A DNA stretch of 42,206 nucleotides, taken from IMG/VR virus record IMGVR_UViG_3300035523_000137, positions 1-42,206 of that record. One strand, 5' to 3'. The notes under the pieces were generated by a model that was given only the letters and a program-made list of their open reading frames with translations, did not search any database and was not told the DNA's origin. Made by a program: the position numbers and the translations under genes. Positions 1 through 23,719 of this stretch are shown one piece after another (within the stretch, counting starts at the first letter, position 1; the number at the start of each line of letters is the position of its first letter). This DNA is from a virus.

Positions 1-186
1 TCATGCCGCCCCCGCCTCGCGCTTCACGTCCATGGCGATGACATTCGCGCTGTCGGGCCCCACAGCCAAGCGTTCTCGGCGCAGTTGCTCCGGACCCTCG
101 GGGTAGCGCCGATGGAGGGCCTCCACGTAGCGAGCCAGGGCGGCGACGAGCGCATCACGCTCCACCGGCCGCACCTGCTCGCTCAT
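1..186 (-). CDS. Small basic protein, paralogue of the integrase-partner gene
   Basis: A 61-residue charged protein of unknown function. It is a close paralogue of the 62-residue protein at 41795-41983: both share an identical 26-residue block (VEALHRRYPEGPEQLRRERL lies inside it) and similar basic tails. Its TGA stop (1-3) overlaps an ATG (complement of 2-4) as ATGA, so another leftward gene almost certainly starts at base 4 and leaves the window. At the right end the equivalent overlap starts a serine integrase. There are no cysteines and no membrane segment. A role as integrase accessory or excision factor is a guess from position only. Confidence 0.65.
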   Translation of the reverse strand: MSEQVRPVERDALVAALARYVEALHRRYPEGPEQLRRERLAVGPDSANVIAMDVKREAGAA

Positions 187-190: not shown

Positions 191-670
191 TCAGTTCGCG
201 CTCTGGATCGTGTAGGTGACCGCGATCGCCAGCGCCGACCAGACGTCCCGGGCGATCCCGTACAGCGGGCCAGGCGCCGCCTTCCGCCCGACCGCTGCCG
301 ACCCGCCGAAGCGGTCGAGGAGTGCCTGGCGGATGTTCGCGTCCTTGGCCCGCGAGTCGCCGCACAAGGCGAGCTTCACGGCGCGTCGCGGAAGGAGCAC
401 AACAGGCACCCGGTGGGCAGCCTCGGCGAAACGGCCCGCCCAGAGGACGGTGTCGAACACCTCGGCGCCGACCGCCATCCCGTAGGACTCGACCTTCTCG
501 ATCACCACGACGTCGGGCAGCCCGCCAGACCGAAGGGCCTTGACGAGGATGTTGTTCTCAGTGATCCCGAAGCCCTGCGGCCGGCTGCCGTCGTACCGCA
601 GCCAGGCGGACTGGCTGGTCCCGGGGTCGATCGCGAGGATCGTCGTCACGCCGCCTTCTCCTTCGCCCAT
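191..670 (-). CDS. RuvC-like Holliday junction resolvase
   Basis: A 159-residue RNase H-fold nuclease expected to cut branched DNA during phage replication or before packaging. Visible motifs are the first strand with ILAIDPGTS (Asp15), the second acidic strand VVVIEKVES (Glu58/Glu61), a KDANIRQALL segment near 109-117 and the C-terminal RDVWSALAIA helix (Asp142). This is the usual order of RuvC acidic residues, in a length typical of phage RuvC-like proteins. It overlaps the upstream exonuclease gene by 25 bases, so the two are probably co-translated. It is more divergent than cellular RuvC; the fold is well supported and the exact substrate is inferred. Confidence 0.8.
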   Translation of the reverse strand: MGEGEGGVTTILAIDPGTSQSAWLRYDGSRPQGFGITENNILVKALRSGGLPDVVVIEKVESYGMAVGAEVFDTVLWAGRFAEAAHRVPVVLLPRRAVKLALCGDSRAKDANIRQALLDRFGGSAAVGRKAAPGPLYGIARDVWSALAIAVTYTIQSAN

Positions 671-1419
671 CCGTGGAGGGCGAGGCAGGCGCGGAACGCG
701 ATCCAGTCGCGGGGGGTGACGGCCGCCTCGTACAGCCGCGTGCCGCCGTCGGTGACGTGGACGAGCCCGTAGCGGGTGATCGCGGGGAGGGCGTGCCGCT
801 CCGGGTCGTTCGGGCGGGCGATGAACTCGGCGTTGGCGTACGCCGCCAGCTGGAGCCGGTGGTCGCGATACACCGTCCCGTCAGGCGTCGCGACCGACGA
901 TCCCGTCTTCCAGTCGAGCAGCCAGACCTCGCCGTCGAGCTCGGCGATGAGGTCGCACGTGCCGCCGTAGCCGAGCGTCTCGTGGAGGAGGAACGCCTCC
1001 ACCTCGAGCGGCCGCAGCCCGTGCTCCCGGACCTGCGCGTTGAGCCAGGCGCGGGCACCCGCGACCGCGGCCTCGTCGCGCGGGTCGATCGTCACCGGCT
1101 CCCGCCGGAGGATCTGCTCGATGGCGGCGTGGATCCGCGAGCCGCGGTCCATGGCGGACGTCGAGAGCGTTGTGAGGTACTTCACCGCCGCGTCGACCTT
1201 GCCGGCCTCGCGGTCCTCGATGAGGCGCTCGGCGCCGGCGATCGCCGCCTGCGCGACCTGGTTCATCTTCCAGTACGTCAGCGCGGGGGCATCGAGCACC
1301 TTCGTGATCGACGTCACACCCGGCCAGGGGCCTGCGCCGTTGAAGTAGTACTGGTGTGTCTTCGTCCGGTGGACGCCGGCGATCGGTGTCTTGGAGCGCG
1401 GTGCCGTCGCGGTGGTCAT
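646..1419 (-). CDS. PD-(D/E)XK exonuclease (Cas4/RecB-like)
   Basis: A 257-residue nuclease of the phage-encoded PD-(D/E)XK_1 type, probably a DNA-end processing exonuclease for recombination. Motifs in order are His97 in RGSRIHAAIE, Glu141 in LEVEAFLLHE, Asp156 in GGTCDLIAEL, the core LLDWKTG (Asp169, Lys171), and the QLAAYA helix (Gln190) typical of RecB-family nucleases. No four-cysteine Fe-S cluster like that of Cas4 is visible. The start is the ATG at 1419, which overlaps the primase stop as ATGA; the frame stays open to 1662, but that extension would run inside the upstream gene. Confidence 0.85.
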   Translation of the reverse strand: MTTATAPRSKTPIAGVHRTKTHQYYFNGAGPWPGVTSITKVLDAPALTYWKMNQVAQAAIAGAERLIEDREAGKVDAAVKYLTTLSTSAMDRGSRIHAAIEQILRREPVTIDPRDEAAVAGARAWLNAQVREHGLRPLEVEAFLLHETLGYGGTCDLIAELDGEVWLLDWKTGSSVATPDGTVYRDHRLQLAAYANAEFIARPNDPERHALPAITRYGLVHVTDGGTRLYEAAVTPRDWIAFRACLALHGWAKEKAA

Positions 1420-3506
1420 GCCGGTCCCTCCTCTGGGTAGCAGGCGTCGCACGTCCACCCGGACGGCGTCTGGCGGTGCTTGAACTGGTGGTCGCGATAC
1501 CAGTGGCAGGGGTTGGCCCAGCCGGTGGGGTCGGCCGGGACGACCCGGAGCACCGGCGCTGCCTCGCGGGCACCCACGCGCGATACGCGTGTCCCCGCTC
1601 CCTCCGCTCCCTCTCCAACCCTTTCCGAGTGAGGGGAGTGAGTGGAGTGAGTGGTCCCACACGCGGGCGCGCCCGCGAGGGAGGAGTGAGTGGAGTGAGC
1701 GAGATCGTCGATATCGGCCTCGTCCGCTCCCTCCGCGTCCTCGTCGATGCGAACGCGGGCGACGACGTAGCCACCCCGGGCCCGGGCCACGGATCCGCCG
1801 GCCACGAGCTTCTCGACGAGCTTCTGGACCGCATCGCGGGTCGACCCGATCAGGTCCGCGATCGCCTTCGGGAAGATCGGGCCTTCGGCCTCGATGACCT
1901 TGTAGACCTCGGCCTGCTCGAAGCTCGCCTCGGCCAGCGATCGCGGCGCTGATGACCAGGTCATCCCGTTGAACTGGACCGGCTCCTCGACCTCCTGGAC
2001 GTCGCGCCCGGTCACAACGAGCTTCCCAAACGTCTCGAGGCGCTTGCGCTGGATGACGAGGGTGGTGTCCGCGGAGCCCGTGATGCCATATGTGCCGGAC
2101 ACGGACGCCAGGAAGTCGTCGCCGGCGTCCTTCTTGCTGTGGTGGACGATGAGCAGGCCGACCGCCCGGTCCTTGAAGATGTCCTGCAGCCGGGCGAGGT
2201 CCTCGACGTCGACCTCGTACGCGTTGCGCCGGGCGTCGCCGCGTGCGCGGACGCGCTGCAAGGTATCGATCGCCACGAGGCGGGCGTCGGGGTGCTGGTC
2301 CAGCCAGTCGACGAGCTCCGCCTCCAGGCCCTCGCCGAGCTTCGCGGCGGCCCAGCGGACCTCGAGCCGGCCACGGGGCATGGAGCGGTCGCCCAGGGCG
2401 GCCCGGAGGCGTGTCTGCCCGCGCCGCTTGCCGTCTTCCAGCGCCAGGTACAGGACGTCGCCCTGCTCGATCTCGCGGCCCAGGAGCTCACCGCCGAGGG
2501 CGACCTCGACCGCGACCTGGTAGACGAGGCAGCTCTTGCCGAGCTTCGGAGGACCGGCGAGGACCGTTGTGCCCTCGGGCAGCAGGTCCGGCACGATCCA
2601 CTGCAGCGGCGGGATGTCGAGCTCGAGGAGGTCGGTGGCGTCGATCGAGCTCGCCTCGACCTCCTGCATCGATCGCGGCTGGCGGGGCGCGTGCGCCGGC
2701 GCCCCGAGGCGCTCGCCAATCTTCGCGGTGACGCGCTCGAAGTCGGAGCGGAGCTCCTCCTCGGTCTTGGCGACCTCGAAGCGCGGGGCGACCTGCGTGC
2801 GCACGAGATCCCAGATCTCATCGATCCCCAGGCCGGCGTTGTAGCGGCTGGCCACGTAGTCGCGGACGGCAGCGTACCGCCGACCGCTGGGGATCCGGTC
2901 GGGGAGCGTGAAGCCGCCGGCGATGGTGATGACCCCCGGGTCGGCCGCCTGGCCGCGGGCAGCGGGCCGCTCCGCGACCGCGGCGGCGACCCAGCCAGCC
3001 GGGAGCATCGCGATGTCGGTCACCGGGCCCGCCGTGTACTCGCGGTCGCCGATTCGGCTTCCGGGCCCGACGAGGTAGCCGCGCCCCGGCCAACGGACGG
3101 TGAAGCCGAACAGCTCGTCGCCCGCGGGAATCGGCACGTCAGAAGGCCAGCGGTAGAAGGCGTGGCGGCCGCCTGAGGGCGTGGTCGTGATCTTCGTGGC
3201 GGGCAGTGGCCCGTGCTGCGCGACGAGGTCGAGCATGCGATCGCGCCAGGGGCGGTCCGCGCCACCACCGTCGTCGAGGTCGAACACGACGACGCGCTCG
3301 GGCCGGTCGACCGGCCAGACGAGCCCGTAGTTCCCGGCGGCCGGGGCCTCGAGCTGTCGGCGGATCCAGTCCGGGCGCGTCGTCGCGTTCTTGAAGCCGT
3401 GCTCCGTCACCGGGACCTTCGCGTCCGCCCGCAGGGCGAACACGGCGAACCCCTGCTCGATCTGCTCGAGCGCGGCGACGACGACCGACTCCGGAGCGGG
3501 CATCAC
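1416..3506 (-). CDS. Prim-Pol primase / RepA-like AAA ATPase fusion
   Basis: A 696-residue replication protein. The N-terminal ~175 residues resemble the archaeo-eukaryotic bifunctional primase/polymerase domain: VVVFDLDD (Asp76, Asp78) and SGGRHAFYRW (His115). A linker leads to a RecA/RepA-like ATPase with Walker A GPPKLGKS (318-325), LYLALED downstream, and Walker B ARLVAIDTL near 395-402. A winged-helix-like segment follows (KVIEAEGPIFPKAIADLIGS). The tail carries a Cys-x-x-Cys in TCDACYPEE. The expected role is priming and unwinding at the phage origin. It overlaps the exonuclease by 4 bases, and the SSB-like gene ends up just ahead of it in the same operon. Confidence 0.85.
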   Translation of the reverse strand: MMPAPESVVVAALEQIEQGFAVFALRADAKVPVTEHGFKNATTRPDWIRRQLEAPAAGNYGLVWPVDRPERVVVFDLDDGGGADRPWRDRMLDLVAQHGPLPATKITTTPSGGRHAFYRWPSDVPIPAGDELFGFTVRWPGRGYLVGPGSRIGDREYTAGPVTDIAMLPAGWVAAAVAERPAARGQAADPGVITIAGGFTLPDRIPSGRRYAAVRDYVASRYNAGLGIDEIWDLVRTQVAPRFEVAKTEEELRSDFERVTAKIGERLGAPAHAPRQPRSMQEVEASSIDATDLLELDIPPLQWIVPDLLPEGTTVLAGPPKLGKSCLVYQVAVEVALGGELLGREIEQGDVLYLALEDGKRRGQTRLRAALGDRSMPRGRLEVRWAAAKLGEGLEAELVDWLDQHPDARLVAIDTLQRVRARGDARRNAYEVDVEDLARLQDIFKDRAVGLLIVHHSKKDAGDDFLASVSGTYGITGSADTTLVIQRKRLETFGKLVVTGRDVQEVEEPVQFNGMTWSSAPRSLAEASFEQAEVYKVIEAEGPIFPKAIADLIGSTRDAVQKLVEKLVAGGSVARARGGYVVARVRIDEDAEGADEADIDDLAHSTHSSLAGAPACGTTHSTHSPHSERVGEGAEGAGTRVSRVGAREAAPVLRVVPADPTGWANPCHWYRDHQFKHRQTPSGWTCDACYPEEGPA

Positions 3507-5309: not shown

Positions 5310-6185
5310 GTGCGCGGGGATCCCCGACGGACACTCCGCCAACGCACCAAGCCACGAGGGCCCGTGACCGCCTCGCCCACTCGCGCCGACCGCTCGGCGC
5401 CCATCTTGCTTGAGGAGCTGCGCACGCCGCCGCGAGACGCCCCGGGCGCCGTCCCCGTGTCCGGCTTGAGGCCCTTCTTCGGCTTCTACGGCGGCAAGTG
5501 GCGCGACGCAGTCAAGCACTACCCAGCACCCCGGTTGGGTACCGTGGTCGAGCCCTTCGCTGGGTCGGCGGGCTACTCCATGCGCTATGCCTCGGCGAAC
5601 GTCGTCCTCGGCGAGATCGACCCCGTCATCTACGGGGTCTGGCGGTACCTGACCCGCGTCAAGGCAAGGGAGATCCTCGCGATCCCTGACCTCGAGCCCG
5701 GGCAGACGGTGAACGACCTCGCCATCCCTCAGGAAGCCCGCTGGCTGGTCGGGTTCTGGATGAACCGGGGCGCCTCGCGGCCGCGGACGAGCCCGTCGGC
5801 GTGGATGCGCGACGGCATCCGCCCCGGCTCCTTCTGGGGCGAGCGGGTGCGCACGACGATCGCGGGGCAGGTCGACGCCATCCGCCACTGGAAGGTCTAC
5901 AACCGCTCCTACGAGCGTCTCCCGTTCCGCGGCGAGGCGACGTGGTTCATCGATCCGCCCTACCAGAAACAGGGCCAGCACTATCACCACGGCGCCGAAG
6001 GCATCGACTTCGCCGCGCTCCGTGCCTGGTGTGAATCGCGGCAGGGCCAGGTCATCGTCTGTGAGAACGCCGGCGCAGACTGGCTGCCGTTCGAGCCGCT
6101 CGCCGACGTGAAGACGACCCGTCGCGGCTCGCGGTCGGTGGAGGTTGCCTGGATCCGCGACGAGGACCCGGTGGGGGGACGATGA
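5310..6185 (+). CDS. D12-class DNA adenine N6-methyltransferase
   Basis: A protein of up to 291 residues that should transfer a methyl group from S-adenosylmethionine to adenine N6. Motifs fit the Dam/D12 class: FFGFYGGKWR near the N-terminus, the SAM loop VVEPFAGSAGYS, and the catalytic FIDPPYQ followed by GQHYHH. The reading frame starts at GTG 5310; a second GTG at 5364, preceded by GAGGG, is an equally good start and removes 18 poorly conserved residues. Its TGA overlaps the next ATG (ATGA at 6182), making it the first gene of a six-gene coupled operon. It may protect self DNA for the downstream helicase-nuclease genes, or be an ordinary phage orphan methylase. Confidence 0.85.
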   Translation: MRGDPRRTLRQRTKPRGPVTASPTRADRSAPILLEELRTPPRDAPGAVPVSGLRPFFGFYGGKWRDAVKHYPAPRLGTVVEPFAGSAGYSMRYASANVVLGEIDPVIYGVWRYLTRVKAREILAIPDLEPGQTVNDLAIPQEARWLVGFWMNRGASRPRTSPSAWMRDGIRPGSFWGERVRTTIAGQVDAIRHWKVYNRSYERLPFRGEATWFIDPPYQKQGQHYHHGAEGIDFAALRAWCESRQGQVIVCENAGADWLPFEPLADVKTTRRGSRSVEVAWIRDEDPVGGR

Positions 6186-6694
6186 GCAACGCGTGGACGA
6201 CGCGCCTTCACACGGCGTTCGTGGGCGCGCTCGATGGCCGCGTCTCAGCGGCCGGCGATGTCCGGCGCAAGCCGCTCGATCTCGACCTCGTCCCGCCGCT
6301 GCCCGGCCGCGTTCGCCTCTACATGTACTCGCTGGTGGCGGGCGGGCCGACGCGCGCCAGGGAGTACAAGGCGATCCTGCGTGTTCCCGGACAGGAGAGG
6401 GGCGAATACGGCTCGTTCGAGCACGCCGACGGGCGACTCACTCTGCTCGTCGCGCATCGGTCCGACCTGGACGTGTTTGTGCTATGGGACGCGACCCTCC
6501 ACCGGACCTTCAAGTGGGCGGGCAACATCCAGGTGCACTCCGACACCGTGCTCGACGCGGCAGCCACGGGCTGGGCCGAGCAGCGTCGACCGCTCACATC
6601 GGGGGTGGATGAGGTAGTCCTCGCCTGCACTAGCCGGCACCTCCCGCGGGCCATCGAGCGGCGCGTGGCGTGGACGGGCGGGATCCGGGGATGA
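6182..6694 (+). CDS. Unknown 170-aa protein, possible restriction-associated domain
   Basis: A 170-residue single-domain protein with a G-rich ribosome site (GGGGGG at 6174-6179) and ATGA overlaps on both sides. The central block EYKAILRVPGQERGEYGSF and the hydrophobic strand DLDVFVLWDATLHRTFK alternate like a beta-rich substrate- or DNA-recognition domain. I recall similar sequence in proteins encoded beside DNA methylases and restriction enzymes, but cannot verify it. No complete PD-(D/E)XK triad is evident. By position it could be a specificity or modification-sensing subunit of the operon. Confidence 0.6.
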   Translation: MSNAWTTRLHTAFVGALDGRVSAAGDVRRKPLDLDLVPPLPGRVRLYMYSLVAGGPTRAREYKAILRVPGQERGEYGSFEHADGRLTLLVAHRSDLDVFVLWDATLHRTFKWAGNIQVHSDTVLDAAATGWAEQRRPLTSGVDEVVLACTSRHLPRAIERRVAWTGGIRG

Positions 6695-8817
6695 CGATGG
6701 GGCTCGACGGTCTCGACCTGCTCACGTCGTACCATCGCGGCGAGAACAACATCGCCGAGGAGTTCTACCTCCCCGCGATGCGGCGGGCGACGCGTTACGA
6801 CCGGGCGGTCGGCTTCTTCCGGAGCGCGGCGTTCATCATCTCGTGGCCGGCCCTGCGCGACTTCGTGGCCCGCGGGGGCAGGATGCGAGTCCTGTGCTCG
6901 CAGGTGCTCAGCCCCGAGGACATCGGCGCCTTGGACGAGGGGTACGCCGCGCGCATCGACGTGCAGGTCGCCGCGCGCCTGCGCGCCGAGGTCGCCAGCC
7001 TCCTGGCTGACCCGGAGATGGGGCAGCCGGCGCGGATCCTGGCCGCGCTCGTGGGGTCGGGTGTGATCGAGTTCCGGGTCGCGATCTGGCGGCCGTCGGA
7101 CAAGGGTCCCCTCTCCAGGATCTTCCACGACAAGCTCGGCTTCTTCCGCGACGACGCTGGCGCCGTCGTGATGTTCAAGGGATCGATGAACGAGACGTGG
7201 ATGGGGCTCGCGGCCGACGGGAACCTCGAGTCCGTCGACGTAGCCCTCTCGTGGTTCGACGGTCGCGAGCGTGAGCGAGTGGAGCGCGAGGACGCCTATT
7301 TCGAGCGCATCTGGGACGGGACGTACCCGGGGCTGATCGTCCGGCCATTCCCGGACACGGCGCGCGACGACCTCGTCCGGGCGGCCGACCCGGACTGGGA
7401 GGGGAGCATCGAGCGGATGCTGCGCGACTCGGCCGGCGAGCCAGAAGACGAAGGGGACCTGGACCCGCTGCGACTGGGCCGGCCGCTAATGAGGCACCAG
7501 ACCGACGGTCTCGAGGCGTGGCGCACCAACGGACGGCGCGGCATCTTCGCGTTCGCAACGGGAGCAGGCAAGACCTTCACGGCACTCATCGCGGCGGAAG
7601 AGTCGATCACTCGATACGGTGAGGTGCCGGTCATCGTCGTGCCCGACCGCACGCTGTTTGACCAGTGGCTCCGAGACGTCATCCCCTTCGCGGATCGCCT
7701 TGACGCGAGGCTCCTCCGGGTCGGGTCGGGCAACAACCGGTGGCGCGACTACCTGCGGTCGTGGACCGCTCCTGGCGCGGGCCGGCGCATCGTCCTTGCC
7801 ACGCTGCCCACTGCGCGGTCGGAGGACTTCCGGCGGCGTCTTGCGGGCGGGCGTCACCTGCTGCTCATCGGCGACGAGGCCCACAGGCTCGGCTCCCGAG
7901 GCGGCCAAGCTCTGCTTGACGAAGCGCTGTTCGGGCCGAGACTCGGGCTGTCGGCGACGCCAGAGCGAGCCGGTGACCAAGTGGGGACTGCGGCCATCCT
8001 CGGCTTCTTCGGTGGCGTTCTCGAGCCGCGCTTCACGCTCGACGACGCCATTGCCGCCGACGTGCTCACGCCGTACTTCTACCGCCCGCACAGGGTTGAG
8101 CTCTCGGACGACGAGATTGAACAGTGGCGCGAGGTCTCCCGGCGGCTTGCGCGGGCGATGTTCGCAGGCGGTGAGCCCGCCGACGGCGGCATCCCGCGCA
8201 GCGCGGAGATGCTGCTGTTCGAGCGCGCCAGGATCGTGAAGGCTGCGGCGGCGAAGGTGCCGCTCGCCGTCGACATCCTGTCCGCGGAGTACCGGCCCGG
8301 CCAGCGCTGGATCGTGTACTGCGACTCCGAGGCCCAGCTAGCCGACGTCCGGGGTGCGCTCCGCGCCGCCGGGTTCACCCCCCGGGCCTACACATCCGCA
8401 ATGCCCGCGGACCGCGAGGCGACCATCCGCTGGTTCACGGAGATCGGCGGGGTCCTCGTTGCCATCCGGTGCTTCGACGAGGGGGTCGACATCCCCGGGA
8501 TCACCCACGCGCTGATCCTCGCTTCGTCGAAGAACCCGCGGGAGTTCATCCAGCGGCGAGGCCGGGTGCTGCGCAAGGCGGACGGCAAGACGCTCGCGTA
8601 CGTCCACGACGCGATCGTCGTCCCGCCCCCGCCGCGCGCCGGCGAGGACGCGCAGCCCGACCCGATCACTGCGGGAGAACTCTCCCGAGCTCTACAGTTC
8701 GCACAAGGTGCGTCCAACCACGGTGCCGCAGCCGACCTGCTCGATATCGCGATCGACGCGGGGATCGACTGGCGCACGATGTTCTCCATGGGGGTCGAGG
8801 ACCAAGACGATGACTGA
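6691..8817 (+). CDS. PLD-family nuclease fused to SF2 DEAH helicase
   Basis: A 708-residue protein from ATG 6691, which overlaps the upstream stop as ATGA. Residues ~10-215 look like a phospholipase D-type nuclease domain: IFHDKLGFFRD (His146, Lys148, Asp154) followed by FKGSMNET (Ser165, Asn167). Residues ~260-660 are a superfamily 2 helicase with a Q-like RHQTDGL, Walker A FATGAGKT (288-295), GDEAHRL (DEAH 395-398) and LSATPER (420-426), then C-terminal EGVDIPG and IQRRGRVLRK arginine-finger motifs. It is probably a DNA translocase-nuclease effector. The architecture matches helicases annotated as restriction components of DNA phosphorothioation clusters, although no sulfur-modification genes are present here. 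Confidence 0.85.
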   Translation: MTMGLDGLDLLTSYHRGENNIAEEFYLPAMRRATRYDRAVGFFRSAAFIISWPALRDFVARGGRMRVLCSQVLSPEDIGALDEGYAARIDVQVAARLRAEVASLLADPEMGQPARILAALVGSGVIEFRVAIWRPSDKGPLSRIFHDKLGFFRDDAGAVVMFKGSMNETWMGLAADGNLESVDVALSWFDGRERERVEREDAYFERIWDGTYPGLIVRPFPDTARDDLVRAADPDWEGSIERMLRDSAGEPEDEGDLDPLRLGRPLMRHQTDGLEAWRTNGRRGIFAFATGAGKTFTALIAAEESITRYGEVPVIVVPDRTLFDQWLRDVIPFADRLDARLLRVGSGNNRWRDYLRSWTAPGAGRRIVLATLPTARSEDFRRRLAGGRHLLLIGDEAHRLGSRGGQALLDEALFGPRLGLSATPERAGDQVGTAAILGFFGGVLEPRFTLDDAIAADVLTPYFYRPHRVELSDDEIEQWREVSRRLARAMFAGGEPADGGIPRSAEMLLFERARIVKAAAAKVPLAVDILSAEYRPGQRWIVYCDSEAQLADVRGALRAAGFTPRAYTSAMPADREATIRWFTEIGGVLVAIRCFDEGVDIPGITHALILASSKNPREFIQRRGRVLRKADGKTLAYVHDAIVVPPPPRAGEDAQPDPITAGELSRALQFAQGASNHGAAADLLDIAIDAGIDWRTMFSMGVEDQDDD

Positions 8818-9010
8818 ACGCGACGACTTGCTCGCCGTGGTGACTGCCGCGCGGGACGCGCTCCACCCCGAGATCGACGACGGATTCCTCACCGATGTGC
8901 TCGATGCGGAGCGGGCCAACCCCGACCAGGAGAACGCCGAACAAGCGGCCGCGGCCCTGCGTTCCGTTGAGGCTGCAGCAGACAGCGCTTTGGCGAGGAG
9001 CGCCCGCTAA
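8810..9010 (+). CDS. Small acidic helical protein of the defence-like operon
   Basis: A 66-residue protein starting at ATG 8810 inside the end of the helicase gene (8-base overlap). Its TAA shares a base with the ATG of the ATPase gene (TAATG at 9008-9012). It is acidic and Ala-rich (EIDDGFLTDVLDAERANPDQ, then a long helix), with no known motif. Double coupling makes it very probably real. It could be an assembly or regulatory subunit bridging helicase and ATPase. Confidence 0.7.
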   Translation: MTERDDLLAVVTAARDALHPEIDDGFLTDVLDAERANPDQENAEQAAAALRSVEAAADSALARSAR

Positions 9011-10962
9011 TGCTCTGGCTGTCCCGAGTCGAGATCGACGGCTTCGGCCCCTACGCCAAGCGCACCGAGTTCACGTTCCCGGACGTGCCGGGCGTAGTCA
9101 TCGTCCATGGCCTCAACAATCGCGGGAAGACGAGCCTTCTCAACGCGATGTACTTCGCGTTCTTCGACATCGTCCGCGACCGGGATCTGCGTCCGTGGCC
9201 CCTCGTCGAGGCGGAGAACGAAGAGAACGCCGCCGCCGGGCAGCACGGGTTCTCGGTCAAGCTCGTATTCCGCTTCGAGGGCGCGACCTACGAGCTCGAC
9301 CGGCGCGTCGCGCTACGCCGCGGCATCGCGAAGCCAGCGGTCGACGAGGACTACGAGCGCTCCTGGTTCCTCGCCCGCGACGGCGACCAGCTGGACTCGC
9401 TCGAGGCGGCCCGGACGATGAGCCGCGTCTTGCCGCAGGACGTCGCCCGCTTCTTCCTCTTCGACGGCGAGCTGCTCACCGAGTACTCGCGGCTTCTCGA
9501 CGACGCCGACATCGCGGGGCGCAAGATCTCCGCAGCGATCGAGATGATCCTCGGCGTCCCGGTTCTCAAGGCGGCCCGCGCGCACGTCTCCGCCGCCGCC
9601 GAGGCTGCAGGAAGGGCCGTCGAGCGCGAGGCTGCCAAGGATGCGCAAACCGCGCAGATCGGCGAGGCCATCCGGCGCACACGCGAGGCGCGCGATGCCC
9701 ACATCGCCGAGCGCGGGCGCAAGCAAGATGACCTTCAGGCGCACGCCGCTGACCTCGAAGAGGTTGACGGCTACCTTCGCGCCCGGGATCGCTACCGCGA
9801 TGCGATGGAGCGCCGGGAGCGGGCCGAGAAGGCCCGCGACGCCGCACGCGACGAGGAGGCCCGTCTGCGGGACCAGTTGCGGACGCAGATGTCGGACGCG
9901 TGGCGAACGGTCGTCGGCGACAAGGTGCGGGAGGCGCGCGAGGCCGCGTCGGACTCGGTCGCCGGGCTGATCGCAGAGGTGGGGCTGGGCCTCCGGATCG
10001 GTGCGATCGAGGCGTGCCACTGCGGGACATGCGACCAGGATGTGCCGCCGGACGTGATCACGCGCCTCAAGGCCTTGCTGCCCGCTGGTGCCAGGCCGGG
10101 CGACGCGGCGACCCCTGTGGGCATCGCCGCCTTCGGCCGCTCCAAGGTTCTGAACGCTTTCCGCGAGACGGACGTCCGGCCGGCCGTGACCATCCTTGCG
10201 GCAGGGATCGAGCGCGCCCGGATGGAGCAGATCGCGCGGGCCGACGAGATCCGTGACCTCGACGCCGACCTTGGCCACGCGGACGAGGACACCCTTCGCG
10301 ACAAGAGCACGACACGAGCGGCGCTCCTGGCCAAGATCGCCGGGGCCGAGAAGGCAATCGAAGATGAGACACGCGAGATCGACGCGGCGACTGCCTCGAT
10401 CACCCGCATGAACGGCTTGCTCGAGGCAGCCGGCGATTCGCCGCTCGCCGCCTTCAAGCGGCGAGCGGCCTTCCTGACGGCGGCAGGCGAGGTGTTCGAG
10501 TCGTCCGTCGAGCGGTTCAAGTCGGACTTGCGCGACAAGGTGGAGGCGACGTCCTCGGCGTACTTCGCGCGGATGACCACGGAGCCCGACTACACGGGGC
10601 TCCGGATCAACGAGTCCTACGGGCTCACTGTGGTCCACCGCGACGGCCGCCTCGTCCGGCGGCGCGCCGCGTCGACCGAGCAGGTCGTGGCCCTCGCGCT
10701 CATGGGCGCCATCCAGGCGAACTCGCCCCTCAAGGGCCCGATCATCATGGACACCCCGTTCGCCCGCCTCGACCCCTACCACACGGCCAAGGTCGTGCAG
10801 GTGGTGCCGGACATGGCGCAGCAGGTGATCTTGCTGGTACAGGAGGGCGAGCTGCGGCGCGACGAGGCGGAACGCCTGCTCGGGACCCGGCTCGTCTATG
10901 AGTTCACCCTCCATCGCGAAGGTGCGTTCGAGACGTCCGTCACTGGAGGTGCGCCGGCATGA
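9010..10962 (+). CDS. DndD/Rad50-like SMC ATPase
   Basis: A 650-residue ABC/SMC-type ATPase. The N-terminus has RVEIDGFGPY and Walker A GLNNRGKTS (34-42), then FFLFDGELL near 155, as in DndD. Two long Arg/Glu/Ala-rich coiled-coil arms flank a zinc-hook-like apex CHCGTC (Cys336, Cys338, Cys341). The C-terminal lobe has a signature-like region (RRRAASTEQVVALALMGAI) and Walker B GPIIMDTPFARLD (577-589). DndD belongs to the phosphorothioation machinery, where it is thought to open or structure DNA. Here it is coupled to a helicase-nuclease instead of DndC. It could equally be a defence SMC-like sensor of DNA ends. Confidence 0.85.
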   Translation: MLWLSRVEIDGFGPYAKRTEFTFPDVPGVVIVHGLNNRGKTSLLNAMYFAFFDIVRDRDLRPWPLVEAENEENAAAGQHGFSVKLVFRFEGATYELDRRVALRRGIAKPAVDEDYERSWFLARDGDQLDSLEAARTMSRVLPQDVARFFLFDGELLTEYSRLLDDADIAGRKISAAIEMILGVPVLKAARAHVSAAAEAAGRAVEREAAKDAQTAQIGEAIRRTREARDAHIAERGRKQDDLQAHAADLEEVDGYLRARDRYRDAMERRERAEKARDAARDEEARLRDQLRTQMSDAWRTVVGDKVREAREAASDSVAGLIAEVGLGLRIGAIEACHCGTCDQDVPPDVITRLKALLPAGARPGDAATPVGIAAFGRSKVLNAFRETDVRPAVTILAAGIERARMEQIARADEIRDLDADLGHADEDTLRDKSTTRAALLAKIAGAEKAIEDETREIDAATASITRMNGLLEAAGDSPLAAFKRRAAFLTAAGEVFESSVERFKSDLRDKVEATSSAYFARMTTEPDYTGLRINESYGLTVVHRDGRLVRRRAASTEQVVALALMGAIQANSPLKGPIIMDTPFARLDPYHTAKVVQVVPDMAQQVILLVQEGELRRDEAERLLGTRLVYEFTLHREGAFETSVTGGAPA

Positions 10963-11598: not shown

Positions 11599-11856
11599 AT
11601 GGACGGCGAATACAACCTGCGATGGTCATTCGATGATCGGCTAGATCGGTCGGTCACGACGGCTGCGGGTCGCGACATGCTCGTCCCACAGTCGTACCGA
11701 GAGCGCGAGCACTCGAACACTCTCGCTGGCCTGCTCGACCTCACAGCTCCGAACTCGATCGAGGCGGCCCCGGCCGGGCGGAGCACCGAGGAGACGGTCA
11801 GGCCGGAAGAGGAGAGCCTCCCGGTCCGAGTCGCCACTTCGACTGCCAGCTGGTGA
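11599..11856 (+). CDS. Possible small ORF of unknown function
   Basis: An 85-residue frame from ATG 11599 with a good AGGAG site six bases upstream (11588-11592). The product begins MDGEYNLRWSFDDRLDRSVT, is polar, and resembles nothing I know. Its 3-prime end overlaps the convergent serine proteinase gene by 59 bases. The ribosome site is the main argument for it; the overlap and the lack of family similarity argue against. Confidence 0.35.
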   Translation: MDGEYNLRWSFDDRLDRSVTTAAGRDMLVPQSYREREHSNTLAGLLDLTAPNSIEAAPAGRSTEETVRPEEESLPVRVATSTASW

Positions 11857-12925
11857 CTTGCATCGTCGCGTCGTCGAGCTGCGTGGCGACCACCCCGATC
11901 GTCGTCCCGGCAACCGAGTTGATGTGGCCGACGCGCCCGACCCGTGCCTTCTTGCCGTTGACTTCGCCCTCGCCCTCGACGCGAAGGTTGGCGTAGGCGT
12001 TGTAGAGCGCCCACATCGCCTCTGCCTCGGCGGCAGTGGCGTCGCGCACCTTGAGGCCGATCTCCTTAGCCTCTTTGCGGTTGATCTGGTACAGGTGCGA
12101 CTTGTAGAAGTCGCTGAGCTTGTCCACGATCGACTTGATCTCGTCGGCCTGTGCGCCCGGATCCATGTGGGTTGAGAGGACGCGCTCGCAAACCTGTTGG
12201 GCGAGCGCCCACGACTGCTCAAGGGCGCCGATGGCGAGCGGATGAACCTTCTCGAACAGCGCCGTATAGATGGTGGCCGCCACCTCGGGTGGGATGTCCT
12301 CGCCGAGTTCGCGCTGGAGGAACTTGAGGACGTGGCGGAGGTCCTGAACGGAGATCGGGATAGGGACCTTCTTGCCGTTGGGCTGGTCCTCGGTCGGGAG
12401 TAGCGGATGGCGGCGCGTCGGATCAACAGGTCCGAGCTCCGACATCTCCGTCATCACAATCTCGTCCGCTCCGACCGCCGTGAGCGTGGCCGCGCTGTGT
12501 GCCCTGTATGGAACAAGCACCACGAAGCGCGTCGCGAACTCCCGGAACAACGAGACGATCTTCCACGGGACTTCCGTCGCTCCCCCTCGACTGCTTAGCC
12601 AGAGGCCCAGCGTGTCGTGGCGTCCGACGCGACGGAGGTGCTCGTAGAGGTGGAGCATCTGTTCGTCCGCGAGAGCAGCGTTGCTCCCATCATCCAGGAA
12701 GTAGCTGATGACGGGACTCCCGAAGGCCTCGGTGACGGTGGCGAGCACGGGATCGATGGCCGTCGCGATGAAGGCGTAATCCGGCTCCTGCGACTGCCTC
12801 TGCTGCTGCTGCTGGGGACCGGGCACCGCGGCTCCTCCTGGGCTTCCTGAGGACGGCAAGGGCTGGCGAGCGGGTCTGCCACGTTGGGGCGGCGTCCGTC
12901 GCTGCTGGCGCTGTTTCGCTGGCAT
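11798..12925 (-). CDS. ClpP-fold serine proteinase, SDH/SppA-like
   Basis: A 375-residue protein of the serine dehydrogenase proteinase (SDH) type, a ClpP/crotonase-fold family related to SppA. The first ~48 residues are basic and low complexity (a Gln/Pro run at 37-46). The core has LWLSSRGGATEVPW, with Gly114-Gly115 as the likely oxyanion site, and RAHSAATLTAVGADEIVM with Ser144 as the expected nucleophile; TEMSELGPVDP follows as usual. No signal peptide or membrane helix is evident, so it is probably cytosolic. The start is ATG 12925; the frame is open to 13027, but that would run into the divergent gene. It shares a 72-base promoter gap with the HNH-like gene. Its role in a phage is unknown. 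Confidence 0.8.
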   Translation of the reverse strand: MPAKQRQQRRTPPQRGRPARQPLPSSGSPGGAAVPGPQQQQQRQSQEPDYAFIATAIDPVLATVTEAFGSPVISYFLDDGSNAALADEQMLHLYEHLRRVGRHDTLGLWLSSRGGATEVPWKIVSLFREFATRFVVLVPYRAHSAATLTAVGADEIVMTEMSELGPVDPTRRHPLLPTEDQPNGKKVPIPISVQDLRHVLKFLQRELGEDIPPEVAATIYTALFEKVHPLAIGALEQSWALAQQVCERVLSTHMDPGAQADEIKSIVDKLSDFYKSHLYQINRKEAKEIGLKVRDATAAEAEAMWALYNAYANLRVEGEGEVNGKKARVGRVGHINSVAGTTIGVVATQLDDATMQVTSWQSKWRLGPGGSPLPA

Positions 12926-12997: not shown

Positions 12998-14536
12998 GTG
13001 ACGTGTCCATGCGGAGGCAACTGTCAACCGCGCCGACTCCCGGAGTGGCTAGTCGCGCAACTCAACGACGCGCGAAGCGGTCTCCTGGCGATTGCGGGGA
13101 TCGTCTCCGAAGGCTTCCTGTGCCCACTGTGCCTGCGGATCCTTCCGGAGTCCTGTGCCACGCTTGCACATGCGCCCAGCAAGGAGGTTGGAGGCAGCGG
13201 CCAGACCTTCCTATGCAAGGCGTGCAACAGCTTCCTGGGCACGGCGTATGAGGCGGCCGCCGACGAGGTCATCTCGTCCATCGAGGAAGCGAAGGCAACG
13301 GGGTCCGTTGCGCAGAAGATCACGCTTCGCCATCGGACCGGACCGCACCTCTACCTGGATGCTGTGTTCTCAGGCTCCACGGATGCGGACAGGGGCATCA
13401 CAGCTGAGCCGATCCGGCGCAACCCCGATGCGGAGAAGCGCTTCGGGGACGCACGCAAGCCGGGCGAGCCGCTCTTCCTCACCTTCCGAGTGCCAAGCGA
13501 AGATCACGTAAAGCTCGCCTACCTGTCGTGGGCATTCCTGCTCTTGTTCCGGCGCCTGGGCTACGCGTTCATCTTCAGCGTGTCGGGCAGGCTGGCACGG
13601 CTGTCGCTGCTGACGGGCAAAGCAACCGACCTCAGTCCCGCCTACTTCTTCACGTACGGCGAGTTCACTGGCGAGGCTTCCCCAGCCACCACGGGTCTCC
13701 TGGTGCGGGCCGAGGCTCCGGACTTCGACCGGTTTCCGCCCATTGCGATCGGCGCTGAGATTGGCAGCACCGTAATCGCCCTGCCGCTGACGGACGACCC
13801 CTTGGGCGCATACGGCCACCTACTCGAGTACACGGCAGATGACAGTCGGCTGCTCGTCCTGCCCTTCGATGAGATCTATCCGGATCACTCCACGGCCATG
13901 CCGGGCATCGCCGCATACCGCTGGCAGAGCGCGGTCGGCACGCTCCATCGGGTCCTTGGTGGCACGCGGAATGAGTTGACAAGCGATCTCGCGGCGGCCG
14001 CGGCGCCGCCGTCCAGCCGGCCGAAGGTCCGCGGGCCGTTGCGCGACAACCCGGACTGGCCACCACCCCCTCTGCCACTTCCCCCGAGGCCTTGGCAGGC
14101 GACATGGCGCGCGACAGCAACCGAATACGTTGCCGCCCGAGGTGTTGCCGTTGCGCCATCGGCGAGTGATGTCGACGACGACGCGTGGATCGCCGAACTC
14201 GCGCTCGTTGACGCGGTTGCCGCGCGGCACGTTGCCGACATGCGCGACCTCTTCCTGCGCGGCGAGGATCCCCGGCGTCGGACTGAGCCACGGGGCGTCG
14301 AGGTGATGCGAGACCTGAACCGAGTAGCTGGCGAGGTGGACAACACGGCACGGGTCGTTGCCGGTGACTTCCGGCTCGTCGACCCAGCCGAGGATTTCTC
14401 ATCGCTGTCAGTGCGCGTCCTGTGCGGCGGCGACGATCTCGTCGTCGGTCCCCACTACGCGTACGAGACGCTCGTCTTCGCCCTGCGCGACGCACTTGGG
14501 GCCGGGAGTCGGCGAGAGGGTAGGCCTACGCCTTAA
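12998..14536 (+). CDS. HNH_5-like zinc protein, large unknown
   Basis: A 512-residue protein from GTG 12998. It opens with a Cys-rich segment (CPCGGNC) and then an HNH-like treble clef: LCPLC (Cys42, Cys45), LAHAPSKEVGG (His58) and LCKACNSFLG (Cys73, Cys76, Asn77), a spacing that fits the HNH_5 family. The remaining ~420 residues are unrecognised, with a Pro-rich linker near 350-370 and a helical C-terminal part. It could be a nuclease effector or a zinc-binding scaffold. It is divergent from the SDH-type proteinase and converges with the tail gene, overlapping it by 11 bases, which marks it as an inserted cargo gene. Confidence 0.65.
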   Translation: MTCPCGGNCQPRRLPEWLVAQLNDARSGLLAIAGIVSEGFLCPLCLRILPESCATLAHAPSKEVGGSGQTFLCKACNSFLGTAYEAAADEVISSIEEAKATGSVAQKITLRHRTGPHLYLDAVFSGSTDADRGITAEPIRRNPDAEKRFGDARKPGEPLFLTFRVPSEDHVKLAYLSWAFLLLFRRLGYAFIFSVSGRLARLSLLTGKATDLSPAYFFTYGEFTGEASPATTGLLVRAEAPDFDRFPPIAIGAEIGSTVIALPLTDDPLGAYGHLLEYTADDSRLLVLPFDEIYPDHSTAMPGIAAYRWQSAVGTLHRVLGGTRNELTSDLAAAAAPPSSRPKVRGPLRDNPDWPPPPLPLPPRPWQATWRATATEYVAARGVAVAPSASDVDDDAWIAELALVDAVAARHVADMRDLFLRGEDPRRRTEPRGVEVMRDLNRVAGEVDNTARVVAGDFRLVDPAEDFSSLSVRVLCGGDDLVVGPHYAYETLVFALRDALGAGSRREGRPTP

Positions 14537-15128
14537 CCCACACCCCGCCGCGCCGCACGTAGACATCCGGCCCCACGTCGGCCCACGCGCCAGAGCGGCG
14601 GACCTGGACGGCATCCGCCTTGATCCAGGCGCCCGATCGGCGGACGTACGTCTCCGAGCCGACCTCGTACACGACGTACACGCCCATCCGGCGGCTGGAG
14701 TGGCTCGACTCGCCGCTCATCCCCGACGGGTTGGACGACCCGTTGTCGTCGTCGTAGTGGGAACCCGTATTGTCGAACCCGAACTGCATCGCCCCGGTCG
14801 GGTTGCGCGTGAAGCCGACGTAGATCGTGCCGGCCGCGACGTCGAACGACGTGGTGACTGCCGCCTCGTACTTTGACGAGGCGCCGATCGCGAGGGCGGC
14901 ACCCGAGGCGGTCTGGAGGGCCGTCTGACCGAGGACGGTGTTGCGCGTGCTGTTCCACACCACGCCGCGGAACGAGCACGAGGCGTCCTTGCCGCGCAGC
15001 CACACGCCGATCCTCGTGATCCGCCCGGCCTCCGGCATCGTGACCGCGGAGCAGTGCTGGTTCTCGACGCCAGAACCCCACCACTCGGAGCCGTAGTCAG
15101 GTTCGGCGGTATAGCCCGCGGTCGGCAT
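14526..15128 (-). CDS. Tail tip / minor structural protein with C-terminal repeats
   Basis: A 200-residue protein at the distal end of the leftward tail operon. The first ~145 residues are a beta-rich, carbohydrate-binding-like domain (ITRIGVWLRGKDASCSFRGV, then GTIYVGFTRNPTGAMQF). The last ~45 residues contain three near copies of a short unit (YVRRSGAW, VQVRRSGAW, YVRRGGVW) separated by 10-14 residues. It is probably a receptor-binding or fibre-cap protein, inferred from position and composition. A gap of 16 bases separates it from the fibre gene. Confidence 0.6.
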   Translation of the reverse strand: MPTAGYTAEPDYGSEWWGSGVENQHCSAVTMPEAGRITRIGVWLRGKDASCSFRGVVWNSTRNTVLGQTALQTASGAALAIGASSKYEAAVTTSFDVAAGTIYVGFTRNPTGAMQFGFDNTGSHYDDDNGSSNPSGMSGESSHSSRRMGVYVVYEVGSETYVRRSGAWIKADAVQVRRSGAWADVGPDVYVRRGGVWVKA

Positions 15129-15144
15129 CTTCTACCTCCCCGGC

Positions 15145-16221
15145 TTACTTCTTGACCCAGATGTCGCCCTCGGTGGCCGAGGCGCCGGGGTCCGTCGTGC
15201 CGACCCAGACCTTCACGCCCGCCGCGCCGCCGCCTGCCGACGCCTGGGCCCAGGCGTTGATGTCGTCCGCGGTGCCCGTGTGGGAGTTGAGGGCGTGGAC
15301 CTGGCTGTGGTGGGCGTCGGGCAGGTAGCCCGAGCCGTGGGCGTGGACGTGCCCGGCTCGCGCCAGGGCACCGGTTGCGCCTGCGCCGCCCGCGGCCGCC
15401 ACGTCCGCTGGCGTCGCGCCCGACGTCGCCACCTGGTGGCCGTGTGTCGAGCGGGCGAACGTCGCGGCCGTGCCCGCCGCGCCCGCGGCGTCGACCGTGA
15501 CGTTGGCGTCTGGGCCCGCGGCCGGCGCCGGGTGGTGGTCGGTCGCCGTCTGGCCGGTCGTCGCCGCGTGGGCGATGGATCCCGACCCATCGCCGCTGTG
15601 GGTGTGGGACTTGGCGTGGTGGTTGTCGGTCGTGAGCCCGTCCAGGTCGGCGTGGCGGACCCTGCGGCCCGTGCCAGCCGTGCCCTCGTGGCGATGGCCG
15701 CCCGTAGGGTCCAGGAGCGTCGTCTGCAGGTTCTCGATGTCGGTGCCGGTCGCCCGCGGGCCGCGCTCGTCGGTGATGTTGCCGTCGACGATCGACGCCG
15801 CGGCTGCCGCGACCGCGACGGACGCCAGGGCGATCTCCCAGACCCCCGCCGCCGCCTGCGTAAGGGCGGGTGCCGCCGGCGGGTCGGCCGGCGTGCCCGT
15901 CAGCACGGCCAGGACCGCGGTCCGGCCGGCTAGGTCGCGGCGGACGACGACCCGGTCGATCCGGGCGAGGGTCGGGTGTGCCGCCGCGATCGCCAGCGCC
16001 TCCTGACCCGTGTGGACCTCGAAGTAGTAGCCCCCGATGAACGCCTTGCCGGTGTTCACCCGGACGCTCATCGCGGGCGGGCTGGCCTCTGCCACGGCGA
16101 GCTCGTTGCCGGTCGCGACGACGCCGTCGCCGATGATCGCGCCAAGGACCTGTGCCCAGGCCTCGGAGGTGTAGATCCGGTCGCCGCCGGAGCTGTCGAA
16201 GAACCGGGATCGCTGGGCCAT
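15145..16221 (-). CDS. Tail fibre / baseplate-like protein, His- and Ala-rich
   Basis: A 358-residue structural protein. The N-terminal ~160 residues (SRFFDSSGGDRIYTSEAWAQ to VWEIALASVAV) match the head domain common in siphophage baseplate and fibre proteins that have a hydrophobic GxxFxGGYYFEV strand. The remainder is Ala/Gly/His-rich, with TGGHRHEGTAGTGRRV, NHHAKSHTHSGDGSG and GHVHAHGSGYLPDAHH, like trimeric fibres whose shafts coordinate metal through His-x-His. It lies between two other tail-tip genes. Confidence 0.7.
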   Translation of the reverse strand: MAQRSRFFDSSGGDRIYTSEAWAQVLGAIIGDGVVATGNELAVAEASPPAMSVRVNTGKAFIGGYYFEVHTGQEALAIAAAHPTLARIDRVVVRRDLAGRTAVLAVLTGTPADPPAAPALTQAAAGVWEIALASVAVAAAAASIVDGNITDERGPRATGTDIENLQTTLLDPTGGHRHEGTAGTGRRVRHADLDGLTTDNHHAKSHTHSGDGSGSIAHAATTGQTATDHHPAPAAGPDANVTVDAAGAAGTAATFARSTHGHQVATSGATPADVAAAGGAGATGALARAGHVHAHGSGYLPDAHHSQVHALNSHTGTADDINAWAQASAGGGAAGVKVWVGTTDPGASATEGDIWVKK

Positions 16222-16232
16222 CGGGCGCTCCT

Positions 16233-18170
16233 TCAGGCTGCCTTGATGATGTAGTTGGCGACGATCGAGGGCTGGACCACGGACAGCGCCGCGTGGTCGC
16301 CGACCGCGGCGCCGGTGTGGGCGGACACCGCGGCGCCGGTGTGGGCGGAGTGCGCGTCGACCGCGGCGCCGGCATGGCTCTGGGCGGCGTGGTCGCTGTG
16401 CGCGCCCGGCTGGGTGACCGTGTGATCGGACGGTTGGGTGACCGAGTGCGCGCTGACACCGACGGCCTGGGACTTGGCCACCGCGTACGACCCCGACGCC
16501 GACGACACGGCAGCCGTCCAGTTGCGCGTCCGGGCGGTGCCGGACCCGAACACGCCCGCGTCAAGCGAGCTGATCGCGTGGGTGTCATCGATGATGAACG
16601 GCAGCTCGTGGCTGTGGTTCGAGTGCGCGGCTACTGCCGCGCCCGCGTGTGCCGAGACGTCGGTGCCGGTGTGCGCGCTGTGCGCCAGCGCCGCGTGCGC
16701 CGAGGGCTGGGTCACCACGTGGTTCGCGTGCGCCGCGGGCTGGGTCACCGTGTGGGCGGCCGGCTGGGTGACCGCGTGGGCCGACGGTGTCGCGGTCTTC
16801 GCGCCGCTCGTCTCGCCGAGCGTGTCGAAGTCGCTGTCCCCGGCCTTCAAGCCCACCGGCACCCGGCCCCGGTAGTCGGGGAGGGAGAAGTGCGTCCCGT
16901 CGGCGGCCCCGTAGGTCGTGCCGATGACCGTGAACAGGGCCGGGAAAGCCGACCGCAGGAGCGACGCGCCGTCGCAGGTGAGCCAGTCGGTGGGCGGGGC
17001 AGCCGCGAGCCAGAGGACGACCGACCCCACGGGCACGCCGCCCGATGCGGCGCTGACCGCCCCGTCGGCGGTCGCCGCGGCGCGGCCCGTTGAGGCCTGC
17101 GACGCCAGGGTCGGGAACGGCCGCCCGAGCGTCGCCCTGACTGTGGGCGCGGCGGCACTCCGCTCGAAGGCCTTGGTGACCTCGACGATGCGGGCTGGGT
17201 ACGCGAGGCCGCGCTCGGCGTTGCGCACCGTGACGACGTCACCGACATCCCAGTGCTCGCGGTACCGGAAGCCGCCGTACTGATGGACGTCGGCCTCGAG
17301 GCTCGTCTCGGCTCCGGTCGCCGCGAGGTACGCGTCGCCCCGCTGGGCGAGCACGGTCGTCTCGCCGAGCTCCACGTCGCGCGCGTCGAGGAACGCTTCG
17401 CGCCGGTCGAAGCCGGATGGCTCGTTGCCTGACCAGCGCGTCACGAGATCGCGGGCGGTGCCCTCGCCCTGGCCAGCGACGAGTGCGACCGTCTTGGCGT
17501 CGATGACCGAGTCGAGCTCCTCCCACCGTTCGAGCGTCTCGAACGCGAAGTCGAAGAACACGGACGCCGAGCGGTCGATGCCGTCGACGACGTCGAACAC
17601 GAAGTCGCCACTGCCGGGGTCGTAGGTGATCTCCCAGCCGATCCCCGCGAGGAGGCCGATCTCGCGGATGAGGTCGAGCACGGTCTGGTAGCGCCCGTTG
17701 ACGGTGACGGTCGGGCCCCGGGCCGCGTCCGCCGCGGCGACGAGTCCGGGCACCGCTCGCGCGGGCGTGGCGAGGTCGGCGGCGTGGGCGCGGAGGTAAT
17801 GCTTCATCGCGGTCTCGGCGGCGACGCCGGTCTGGCGGTCGTGGCTCTCGCCCACTGGCGGCTCGACGAGGCGCTCGGCCATCGCGATCCCCTCGAGCGA
17901 GCGCCCCGTGACCGTCATCTCGTCGTTGCGCGTGCTCCCCTCGGCGACGCTCGCGATCTGCTCGATGAGGAACACGAGGTCGCCCTCGTCTGGCAGGTAG
18001 AGGAGGCGCTTGGTGGCGAGCTCGCTGGCCCACAGGCGCGTCCGGTTGATGACGAGCTCGAAGGTGTCCATCGCGACGTACCGGCGCACGTACGAGAGGC
18101 GCTCCCAGCTCTGGTCGACGAGCCCCAGGGTGGCGCGGGTCACGGGGTCCAGGACGTAGGCGCGAGTCAC
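16233..18170 (-). CDS. Gp37-like tail protein fused to a collar domain and His-rich shaft
   Basis: A 645-residue protein from GTG 18170. Residues 1-~345 resemble the ReqiPepy6 gp37-like siphophage tail protein (MTRAYVLDPVTRATLG, then WERLSYVRRYVAMDTFELVI). Residues ~370-440 are a phage collar domain (VLWLAAAPPTDWLTCDG, then FSLPDYRGRVPVGL). The C-terminal ~200 residues are a degenerate heptad-like repeat rich in AH.VTQP and SAHTGAAV units, ending VQPSIVANYIIKAA. At DNA level a 22-bp unit repeats at 16304 and 16328 (period 24). It probably forms the central baseplate and part of the fibre. The fused layout is less usual than separate proteins. Confidence 0.8.
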   Translation of the reverse strand: MTRAYVLDPVTRATLGLVDQSWERLSYVRRYVAMDTFELVINRTRLWASELATKRLLYLPDEGDLVFLIEQIASVAEGSTRNDEMTVTGRSLEGIAMAERLVEPPVGESHDRQTGVAAETAMKHYLRAHAADLATPARAVPGLVAAADAARGPTVTVNGRYQTVLDLIREIGLLAGIGWEITYDPGSGDFVFDVVDGIDRSASVFFDFAFETLERWEELDSVIDAKTVALVAGQGEGTARDLVTRWSGNEPSGFDRREAFLDARDVELGETTVLAQRGDAYLAATGAETSLEADVHQYGGFRYREHWDVGDVVTVRNAERGLAYPARIVEVTKAFERSAAAPTVRATLGRPFPTLASQASTGRAAATADGAVSAASGGVPVGSVVLWLAAAPPTDWLTCDGASLLRSAFPALFTVIGTTYGAADGTHFSLPDYRGRVPVGLKAGDSDFDTLGETSGAKTATPSAHAVTQPAAHTVTQPAAHANHVVTQPSAHAALAHSAHTGTDVSAHAGAAVAAHSNHSHELPFIIDDTHAISSLDAGVFGSGTARTRNWTAAVSSASGSYAVAKSQAVGVSAHSVTQPSDHTVTQPGAHSDHAAQSHAGAAVDAHSAHTGAAVSAHTGAAVGDHAALSVVQPSIVANYIIKAA

Positions 18171-18173
18171 AGT

Positions 18174-19064: not shown

Positions 19065-19066
19065 CG

Positions 19067-21070: not shown

Positions 21071-21071
21071 G

Positions 21072-22137: not shown

Positions 22138-22165
22138 GGTCAGTCTCCTTTCCGCTGGCGGGGCA

Positions 22166-22522: not shown

Positions 22523-22737
22523 GCCTCGCCCTCCGGGACCTTGAGCGCCCGTGACGCCCGCGGGCTGCGCTCCTCGACAATCCCGATCGACGGGTGGGCC
22601 CGGGCATAGGCGCGGACCGCAACGGCATCGGATCGGGCGACCGCCAGGCGGCCGCCGACGAACTTGTAGCCCCGGCCGGCGCGGACGTAGTGGGCCGGCT
22701 GGCGCGGCGAGCGGAAGCGGACGAGGGTGTCGCTCAT
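22519..22737 (-). CDS. Small neck-region protein
   Basis: A 72-residue protein (MSDTLVRFRSPRQPAHYVRA start, SRALKVPEGEA end) with overlapping start and stop signals on both sides. It has no recognised domain. Small proteins of this kind are common between connector genes and can be head-tail stoppers or decoration-like; a specific role cannot be assigned. Confidence 0.6.
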   Translation of the reverse strand: MSDTLVRFRSPRQPAHYVRAGRGYKFVGGRLAVARSDAVAVRAYARAHPSIGIVEERSPRASRALKVPEGEA

Positions 22738-23713: not shown

Positions 23714-23719
23714 CGGGCG

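Follow-up and report, generated by a model that had tools for sequence, protein, structure and literature searches.

An IMG/VR virus record that probably covers the join of two related prophages at a Chloroflexota tRNA gene

Introduction

The sequence analysed here is the complete 42,206-bp IMG/VR record IMGVR_UViG_3300035523_000137 (hereafter the window), so that base 1 is also the left limit of the record. Two similar small genes lie at its two extremes, and the one on the right leads into a serine integrase gene. This raises the question of whether the left one, at which the record stops, belongs to a second recombinase gene beyond the edge, and whether the record then represents one element or parts of two. 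Phage serine integrases such as those of phiC31 and Bxb1 have a resolvase domain and act on an attP of ~50 bp, an imperfect dyad with a central dinucleotide, while targeting of tRNA 3′ ends is mostly seen among tyrosine integrases.

Two copies of a small ORF at the ends of the record

The small ORF on the left (copy B; 1–186, minus strand; 61 aa) and that on the right (copy A; 41795–41983, minus strand; 62 aa) had been reported in an earlier note to share an identical block of 26 residues, and the comparison confirmed this, with ALARYVEALHRRYPEGPEQLRRERLA as their longest common identical block. Copy B is 79% identical to copy A, and the DNA of the two is 84% identical over ~190 bp (E = 1e-56). 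No other direct repeat in the window is as long as this pair (D1, spacing 41794), and the likeness is therefore far beyond chance. Both ORFs are terminated by 5′-ATGA-3′ (TCATG on the plus strand), just as the note had described, and the possible start codons that are overlapped begin at 4 on the left, where the TGA of copy B meets the cut edge, and at 41798 on the right. The likeness ends where the small ORFs begin, and the DNA upstream is unlike. Copy B is preceded by a RuvC-like gene (191–670), and copy A by the upstream DNA of what is called element A below (41984–42206, minus strand), consisting of ~100 bp of non-coding sequence and then the end of another gene. Within the DNA upstream of copy A, 91 bp are 89% identical to the DNA that precedes the small ORF in two loci of the genome BP4.bin83 (L022 and L023), and this DNA is unlike the RuvC gene of copy B. 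With a 16% difference between the copies and unlike genes upstream of them, the two could share one circle only after a duplication. The ends of the record are only 84% identical and the DNA upstream of them differs, so a simple circular genome with exact repeats at its ends was rejected. Base 1 is the exact end of the copy B stop codon, so the record seems to have been trimmed at a gene boundary.

Neither copy matched Pfam or NCBIfam, and copy B had no match in annotated phage records or PHROGs. The AlphaFold model of the small ORF consists of two helices (residues 8–27 and 32–42), with a mean pLDDT of 67 and a pTM of 0.39, a quality too low for a fold search. Our guess is that the product could be an accessory or directionality factor.

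The small ORF is coupled to serine integrases in relatives

The right-hand neighbour had been named a serine integrase from its sequence, and domain searches agree. The 518-aa protein (40242–41798, minus strand), read here as part of element A, contains the N-terminal resolvase catalytic domain (PF00239; 41.6 bits against a cut-off of 23.3, E 1.7e-10) with the catalytic-serine motif RESTAGQ at residue 27, and is covered by the phrog_95 integrase over residues 16–466 (E 1.7e-37). The Recombinase domain PF07508 scored 17.4 bits, below its cut-off of 21.1, the CcrB model gave a weak match (23.6 bits against a cut-off of 900), and no solved structure was matched by sequence.

Searches of viral contigs with the two small-ORF proteins found two other records only, both with a serine integrase immediately after the small ORF. 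Relatives of the integrase were collected by alignment from 6 viral loci (two of them in the records just mentioned) and from 32 loci in metagenome-assembled genomes, nearly all of the latter Chloroflexota. The small ORF directly precedes the integrase in all 15 close relatives with upstream DNA (as partial copies in L031 and L045), and its stop overlaps the integrase start as RTGA (ATGA or GTGA) in the 14 intact cases. The same pattern recurs with distant integrases of 34–53% identity (e.g., L019, L036, L038, L040, L042, L048, L049 and L053), where the ORF is often shorter, begins with the same D-P-[IL]-x-x-A-L-A and is coupled likewise. When the small-ORF profile was run by itself against 126 genomes, 13 matches appeared in 12 of the genomes, and an integrase directly follows 12 of the 13; the remaining match (L150) is a 28-aa remnant without an integrase. 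This pattern is best explained if temperate Chloroflexota elements carry, at one of their ends, an integration unit of two genes, in which the small ORF would be the leading cistron and would overlap the serine integrase gene by RTGA. In the window, such a unit is complete at the right, in element A; at the left, the record has the small ORF only, next to the replication end of element B.

The genes next to copy B point in the same direction. The exonuclease–RuvC module of the window (191–1419) recurs in L049 (84.5% DNA identity over 1300 bp) and L048 (85.8% over 859 bp), and the RuvC proteins of L058 and L059 share 86–87% amino acid identity with that of the window. All four of these close relatives continue from the left module through an HTH gene or short ORF and the small coupled ORF into a serine integrase, which is 34–41% identical to the window integrase. 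At a further locus (L140), DNA like the RuvC gene at the left of the window (82.7% identity) abuts a P0003-type integrase of the window's own clade (78–84% DNA identity) at a tRNA-Arg(CCG); this locus is rearranged locally by a deletion and an inversion, and the small ORF and the integrase N-terminus have been lost. Because both the small ORFs and the left modules of relatives lead into serine integrases, and because of L140, the gene at base 4 is in all likelihood a serine integrase (int B) that lies outside the record, with its predicted first codon at 1–4 on the minus strand. The earlier suggestion that the left copy may belong to a second recombinase is thus supported by each of the comparisons given above (15/15, 12/13, 4/4 and L140). 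Int B may belong to another clade than the integrase of element A (int A), since most of the integrases behind the closest left-module relatives are divergent (34–41%), although copy B itself is so similar to copy A. A copy B that stands alone, as a stray paralogue or a remnant, next to a base-4 gene with no role in integration would agree with the 28-aa piece of L150 and with the more distant RuvC relatives, in which no integrase follows RuvC. Copy B, however, is of full length with its ATGA overlap intact, and the regular order seen in the left-module relatives and behind the small-ORF matches makes this reading extremely improbable.

Attachment sites and the integrase C-terminus

The 3′ end of int A contains a 48-bp attP-like dyad, AGGTTGCAGTGGCGCGCCCGACA-GG-TGTTGGGCGCGGGATTACAACCT (40301–40348, minus strand), with a central GG and arms of 23 positions, 18 of them complementary; none of 100,000 shuffles equalled it. 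Its left arm is the 3′ end of tRNA-Arg(CCG). After this core the integrase continues into a conserved 26-aa tail, VGRGITTYEIPIEGRDEWLVAAGLGA (40245–40322, minus strand), and among seven junctions the changes in this stretch are synonymous, with the amino acids kept. The core of the window has phage-type DNA on both sides; a tRNA search found no tRNA gene in the window, and the window contains no host DNA. The search for att sites proposed in the earlier note yielded an attP-like core, with no tRNA gene next to it. This dyad could be either the attP of a circle or the join between elements A and B.

The relatives indicate where such cores lie in a chromosome. In the genome G002, the integrase 3′ end runs into a tRNA-Arg(CCG) at 27.39 kb, which gives attL. 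Its 22-bp core recurs at 70.68 kb with host DNA on the far side (attR), and the two sites delimit a prophage of 43.3 kb that carries one full integrase gene. Behind the tRNA-Arg of this attL, the flanking DNA contains a tyrosine recombinase gene (L006 5710–6813; XerC/D-like by eye). Another element, in G001, measures ~42.1 kb, with integrase halves at both contig ends. A tRNA gene was found at the integrase 3′ end or within ~100 bp of it in 18 loci (G002 and 17 others), comprising 11 Arg-CCG, four Pro-CGG and one each of Arg-CCT, Arg-TCG and Arg-TCT.

Comparison of the two states gives a free C-terminus of ..ARPTGVGRGITTYEIPIEGRDEWLVAAGLGA and an integrated one of ..ARPTGFEPATFGSGG.., the latter read antisense to the tRNA (L012 5374–5393). 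As predicted proteins, the integrases are thus shown to end in the 26-residue tail before integration and in a tRNA-antisense tail after it. Because attP lies in the integrase 3′ end, integration into the tRNA would replace the last ~26 residues by a tail read antisense through the tRNA.

Gene content of element B

The long element between the two units, B, has a near-complete phage gene set with terminase, portal, head, tape measure, tail and replication genes. Copy B at the left edge is followed, all on the minus strand, by the RuvC-like Holliday junction resolvase (191–670; phrog_1770, E 4.6e-18), whose relatives, at 86–90% amino acid identity, are followed by a serine integrase, then by a PD-(D/E)XK exonuclease (646–1419; PF12705, phrog_298) and a primase-polymerase/helicase replication module (1416–3503; PF09250, PF13481). 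A siphophage structural block (14526–30552, minus strand), annotated with PHROGs, encodes a tail fibre, a Dit-like protein, a tape measure, the major head protein, a portal, a terminase and a methyltransferase. Just inside the far end of B lies a LuxR-type HTH gene (39982–40221, minus strand; PF00196), whose homologues follow the integrase tail in L031 and G002.

Between the replication and structural genes, a defence-like block is found on the opposite strand (5364–10962). It encodes a methyltransferase (PADLOC MTase_II, E 3e-31), an MTaX1-domain protein, a PbeA-like helicase (E 1.7e-189) and a PbeC/DndD-like ATPase (E 3e-153), and looks like a prophage-borne, phosphorothioate-linked Pbe-type system paired with a methyltransferase. 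The stretch between this block and the structural block contains a gene for a ClpP-like SDH-type serine protease (11798–12826, minus strand; PF01972).

The right part of B contains further HTH sequences. One piece (36721–36843, minus strand) is a truncated copy of the HTH gene at the end, with 95% amino acid identity, and an HTH gene of a second type (33970–34215, minus strand) corresponds to one that follows the integrase tail in G001 and also occurs in L031. Together with the end gene at 39982–40221, these may be what is left of earlier element ends that became stacked here. A 136-bp repeat (82% identity; 35819–35954 and 37352–37487) lies each time just upstream of a minus-strand gene (35473–35817 and 36845–37315, respectively), and the repeats are possibly duplicated promoters.

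A putative tandem of two prophages

The order integrase, core, tail and HTH gene at 39982–41798 places an element end directly against an integrase, and the core at 40.32 kb is separated from the left edge by roughly the length of one element; the same sequence could also be read as the attP of a circle. Comparable joins were found in chromosomes, in genomes that are metagenome assemblies. L031 has two short elements between a core at 2891 and a tRNA-Arg(CCG) at 13902, with an integrase/core/tail join at the core at 9414, and one contig (G046:C48) has two integrase/core/tail joins in the same orientation, 29.2 kb apart. In G002, a second copy of the tail and HTH gene is present at 66.97 kb. 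Within 30 kb, a Chloroflexota MAG contig (G005:C107:12339–41752; L168, L169) carries four genes or gene fragments of serine integrases, all on the same strand, and its genome, BP4.bin83, has 15 integrase matches; neither a tRNA nor a matching core was found there, and it was not counted as a proven array of this type.

Combined with the prediction for base 4, these observations suggest that the record probably spans the join of two related prophages, a siphophage B in tandem with an element A, at a tRNA gene of a host that we infer to belong to the Chloroflexota. Int B would start at base 4 and continue for ~1.5 kb outside the record, as far as a core that lies at a tRNA-Arg(CCG) gene. Element B would then extend from that tRNA core to the core at 40.32 kb and measure ~41.9 kb with int B, a size like that of the relatives (43.3 kb from attL to attR in G002 and ~42.1 kb in G001). 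The far end of B, with its tail and HTH gene, would be joined at 40.32 kb to the integrase of element A, as in the chromosomal arrays, and the record would stop within the array on either side. Such a join could be formed by site-specific recombination, if an incoming circle used its attP on the attL or attR of a prophage already in place; homologous recombination would be another route.

Two other readings of the same anatomy were weighed. The record could be a chimeric assembly, in which B would be a ~41.8-kb circle whose one integrase is that at 40242–41798, and the final ~400 bp would stem from a different strain with an unlike small ORF and unlike upstream DNA. This would fit the distance from base 1 to 41795, which is one element length, and the junction at 40.32 kb, a good attP-type dyad with phage-type arms on both sides; the integrase halves at both contig ends of G001 would be expected of an opened ring, and related elements do coexist within one genome (G005). 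However, a fork in the assembly graph that led into the right-end integrase predicts an identical k-mer at both ends, whereas 1–190 and 41795–41986 are only 84% identical and differ from the first bases, and a base 1 placed exactly at a stop codon fits trimming better than a graph fork. We therefore regard a chimera as unlikely, although it is the more serious of the two alternatives.

The earlier note had left open whether the record comes from tandem prophages or from a two-integrase element. A single phage that had gained a second integration unit at its att end could explain two units one element length apart, and the stacked end-like pieces in the right part of B (36721–36843 and 33970–34215) would be in keeping with such gains. 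Against this, the attP-type junction between the units marks an element boundary, the G002 prophage, bounded by both attL and attR, has one full integrase gene, and tandem arrays in chromosomes account for the same anatomy. The two-integrase half of the proposal is thus improbable, while the tandem half is favoured by the attP-like junction and by the arrays in L031 and G046:C48.

If the tandem reading is correct, the place where two prophages meet can be contained in a single IMG/VR "virus" record, with consequences for the genome length, completeness and gene counts of such records. More speculatively, the relatives might represent a clade of serine integrases specialised on the 3′ ends of Chloroflexota tRNA-Arg and tRNA-Pro genes, always co-translated with a small helical partner that controls direction. 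In such a clade, the conserved C-terminal tail would be lost when integration cuts the integrase gene, so that the enzyme differs between the free and integrated states, and multi-element arrays would be built at single tRNA genes; we put this forward as a tentative picture. The swap of the C-terminus suggests a hypothesis on the silencing of excision that can be tested, and serine integrases of tRNA 3′ ends with a conserved, uncharacterised small partner could serve as tools for high-GC Chloroflexota.

Comparison with known systems

The window integrase resembles the phiC31 and Bxb1 type in its resolvase domain and in the imperfect attP-like dyad of ~50 bp with a central dinucleotide. Overlap with a tRNA 3′ end, as seen for its clade, is unusual for phage serine integrases. 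In Mycobacterium abscessus, a tRNA or tmRNA attB was given for 16 of 23 tyrosine-integrase systems and reported for none of six serine-integrase systems (PMC10654092).

Adjoining prophages are known from the same species, where two different but related prophages, prophiT36-2a and prophiT36-2b, occupy a single attB side by side. An att core that falls within a phage gene shows where they join, and the join is thought to result from two successive site-specific integrations (PMC9934374). There attP lies in a repressor gene, whereas in the window it lies in the 3′ end of the serine integrase gene, and the host phylum is different. Closer in host, the ssrA islands of Dehalococcoides (Chloroflexota) have a serine recombinase, DsiB, at the edge and form many tandem islands bounded by repeats of ~20 bp (PMC3146451). 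They are similar to the window system in the serine recombinase at the edge and in the RNA-gene 3′ end as target. They differ in that the target is tmRNA rather than tRNA-Arg or tRNA-Pro genes, and in that DsiB is preceded by a second, small serine recombinase, DsiA (PMC3146451), whereas the 62-aa ORF here has no recombinase domain match. Moreover, element B is a tailed phage, unlike these islands. The window was not assigned to the ssrA type: its core is a tRNA-Arg(CCG) 3′ end, and the ORF before its integrase has no Pfam or NCBIfam match.

The exchange of the integrase C-terminus has a parallel in streptococcal ICEs that use one serine integrase to insert at rumA. Their att repeat lies within the integrase gene, and integration exchanges 3′ ends and so alters the C-terminus (PMC4701971). 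The new C-terminus comes from a protein-coding target gene in those ICEs and from a tRNA read antisense here.

Tandem prophages (PMC9934374), serine-integrase tandem islands at a Chloroflexota RNA gene (PMC3146451) and a C-terminus swap (PMC4701971) are therefore already described separately, and the combination of a tailed phage, tRNA genes and a conserved coupled small ORF was not found in the literature searched, which covered few subscription-only papers. The new details, as read from sequence comparison, would be a serine integrase that targets tRNA genes, the small ORF coupled to it, and a C-terminus that is swapped on integration.
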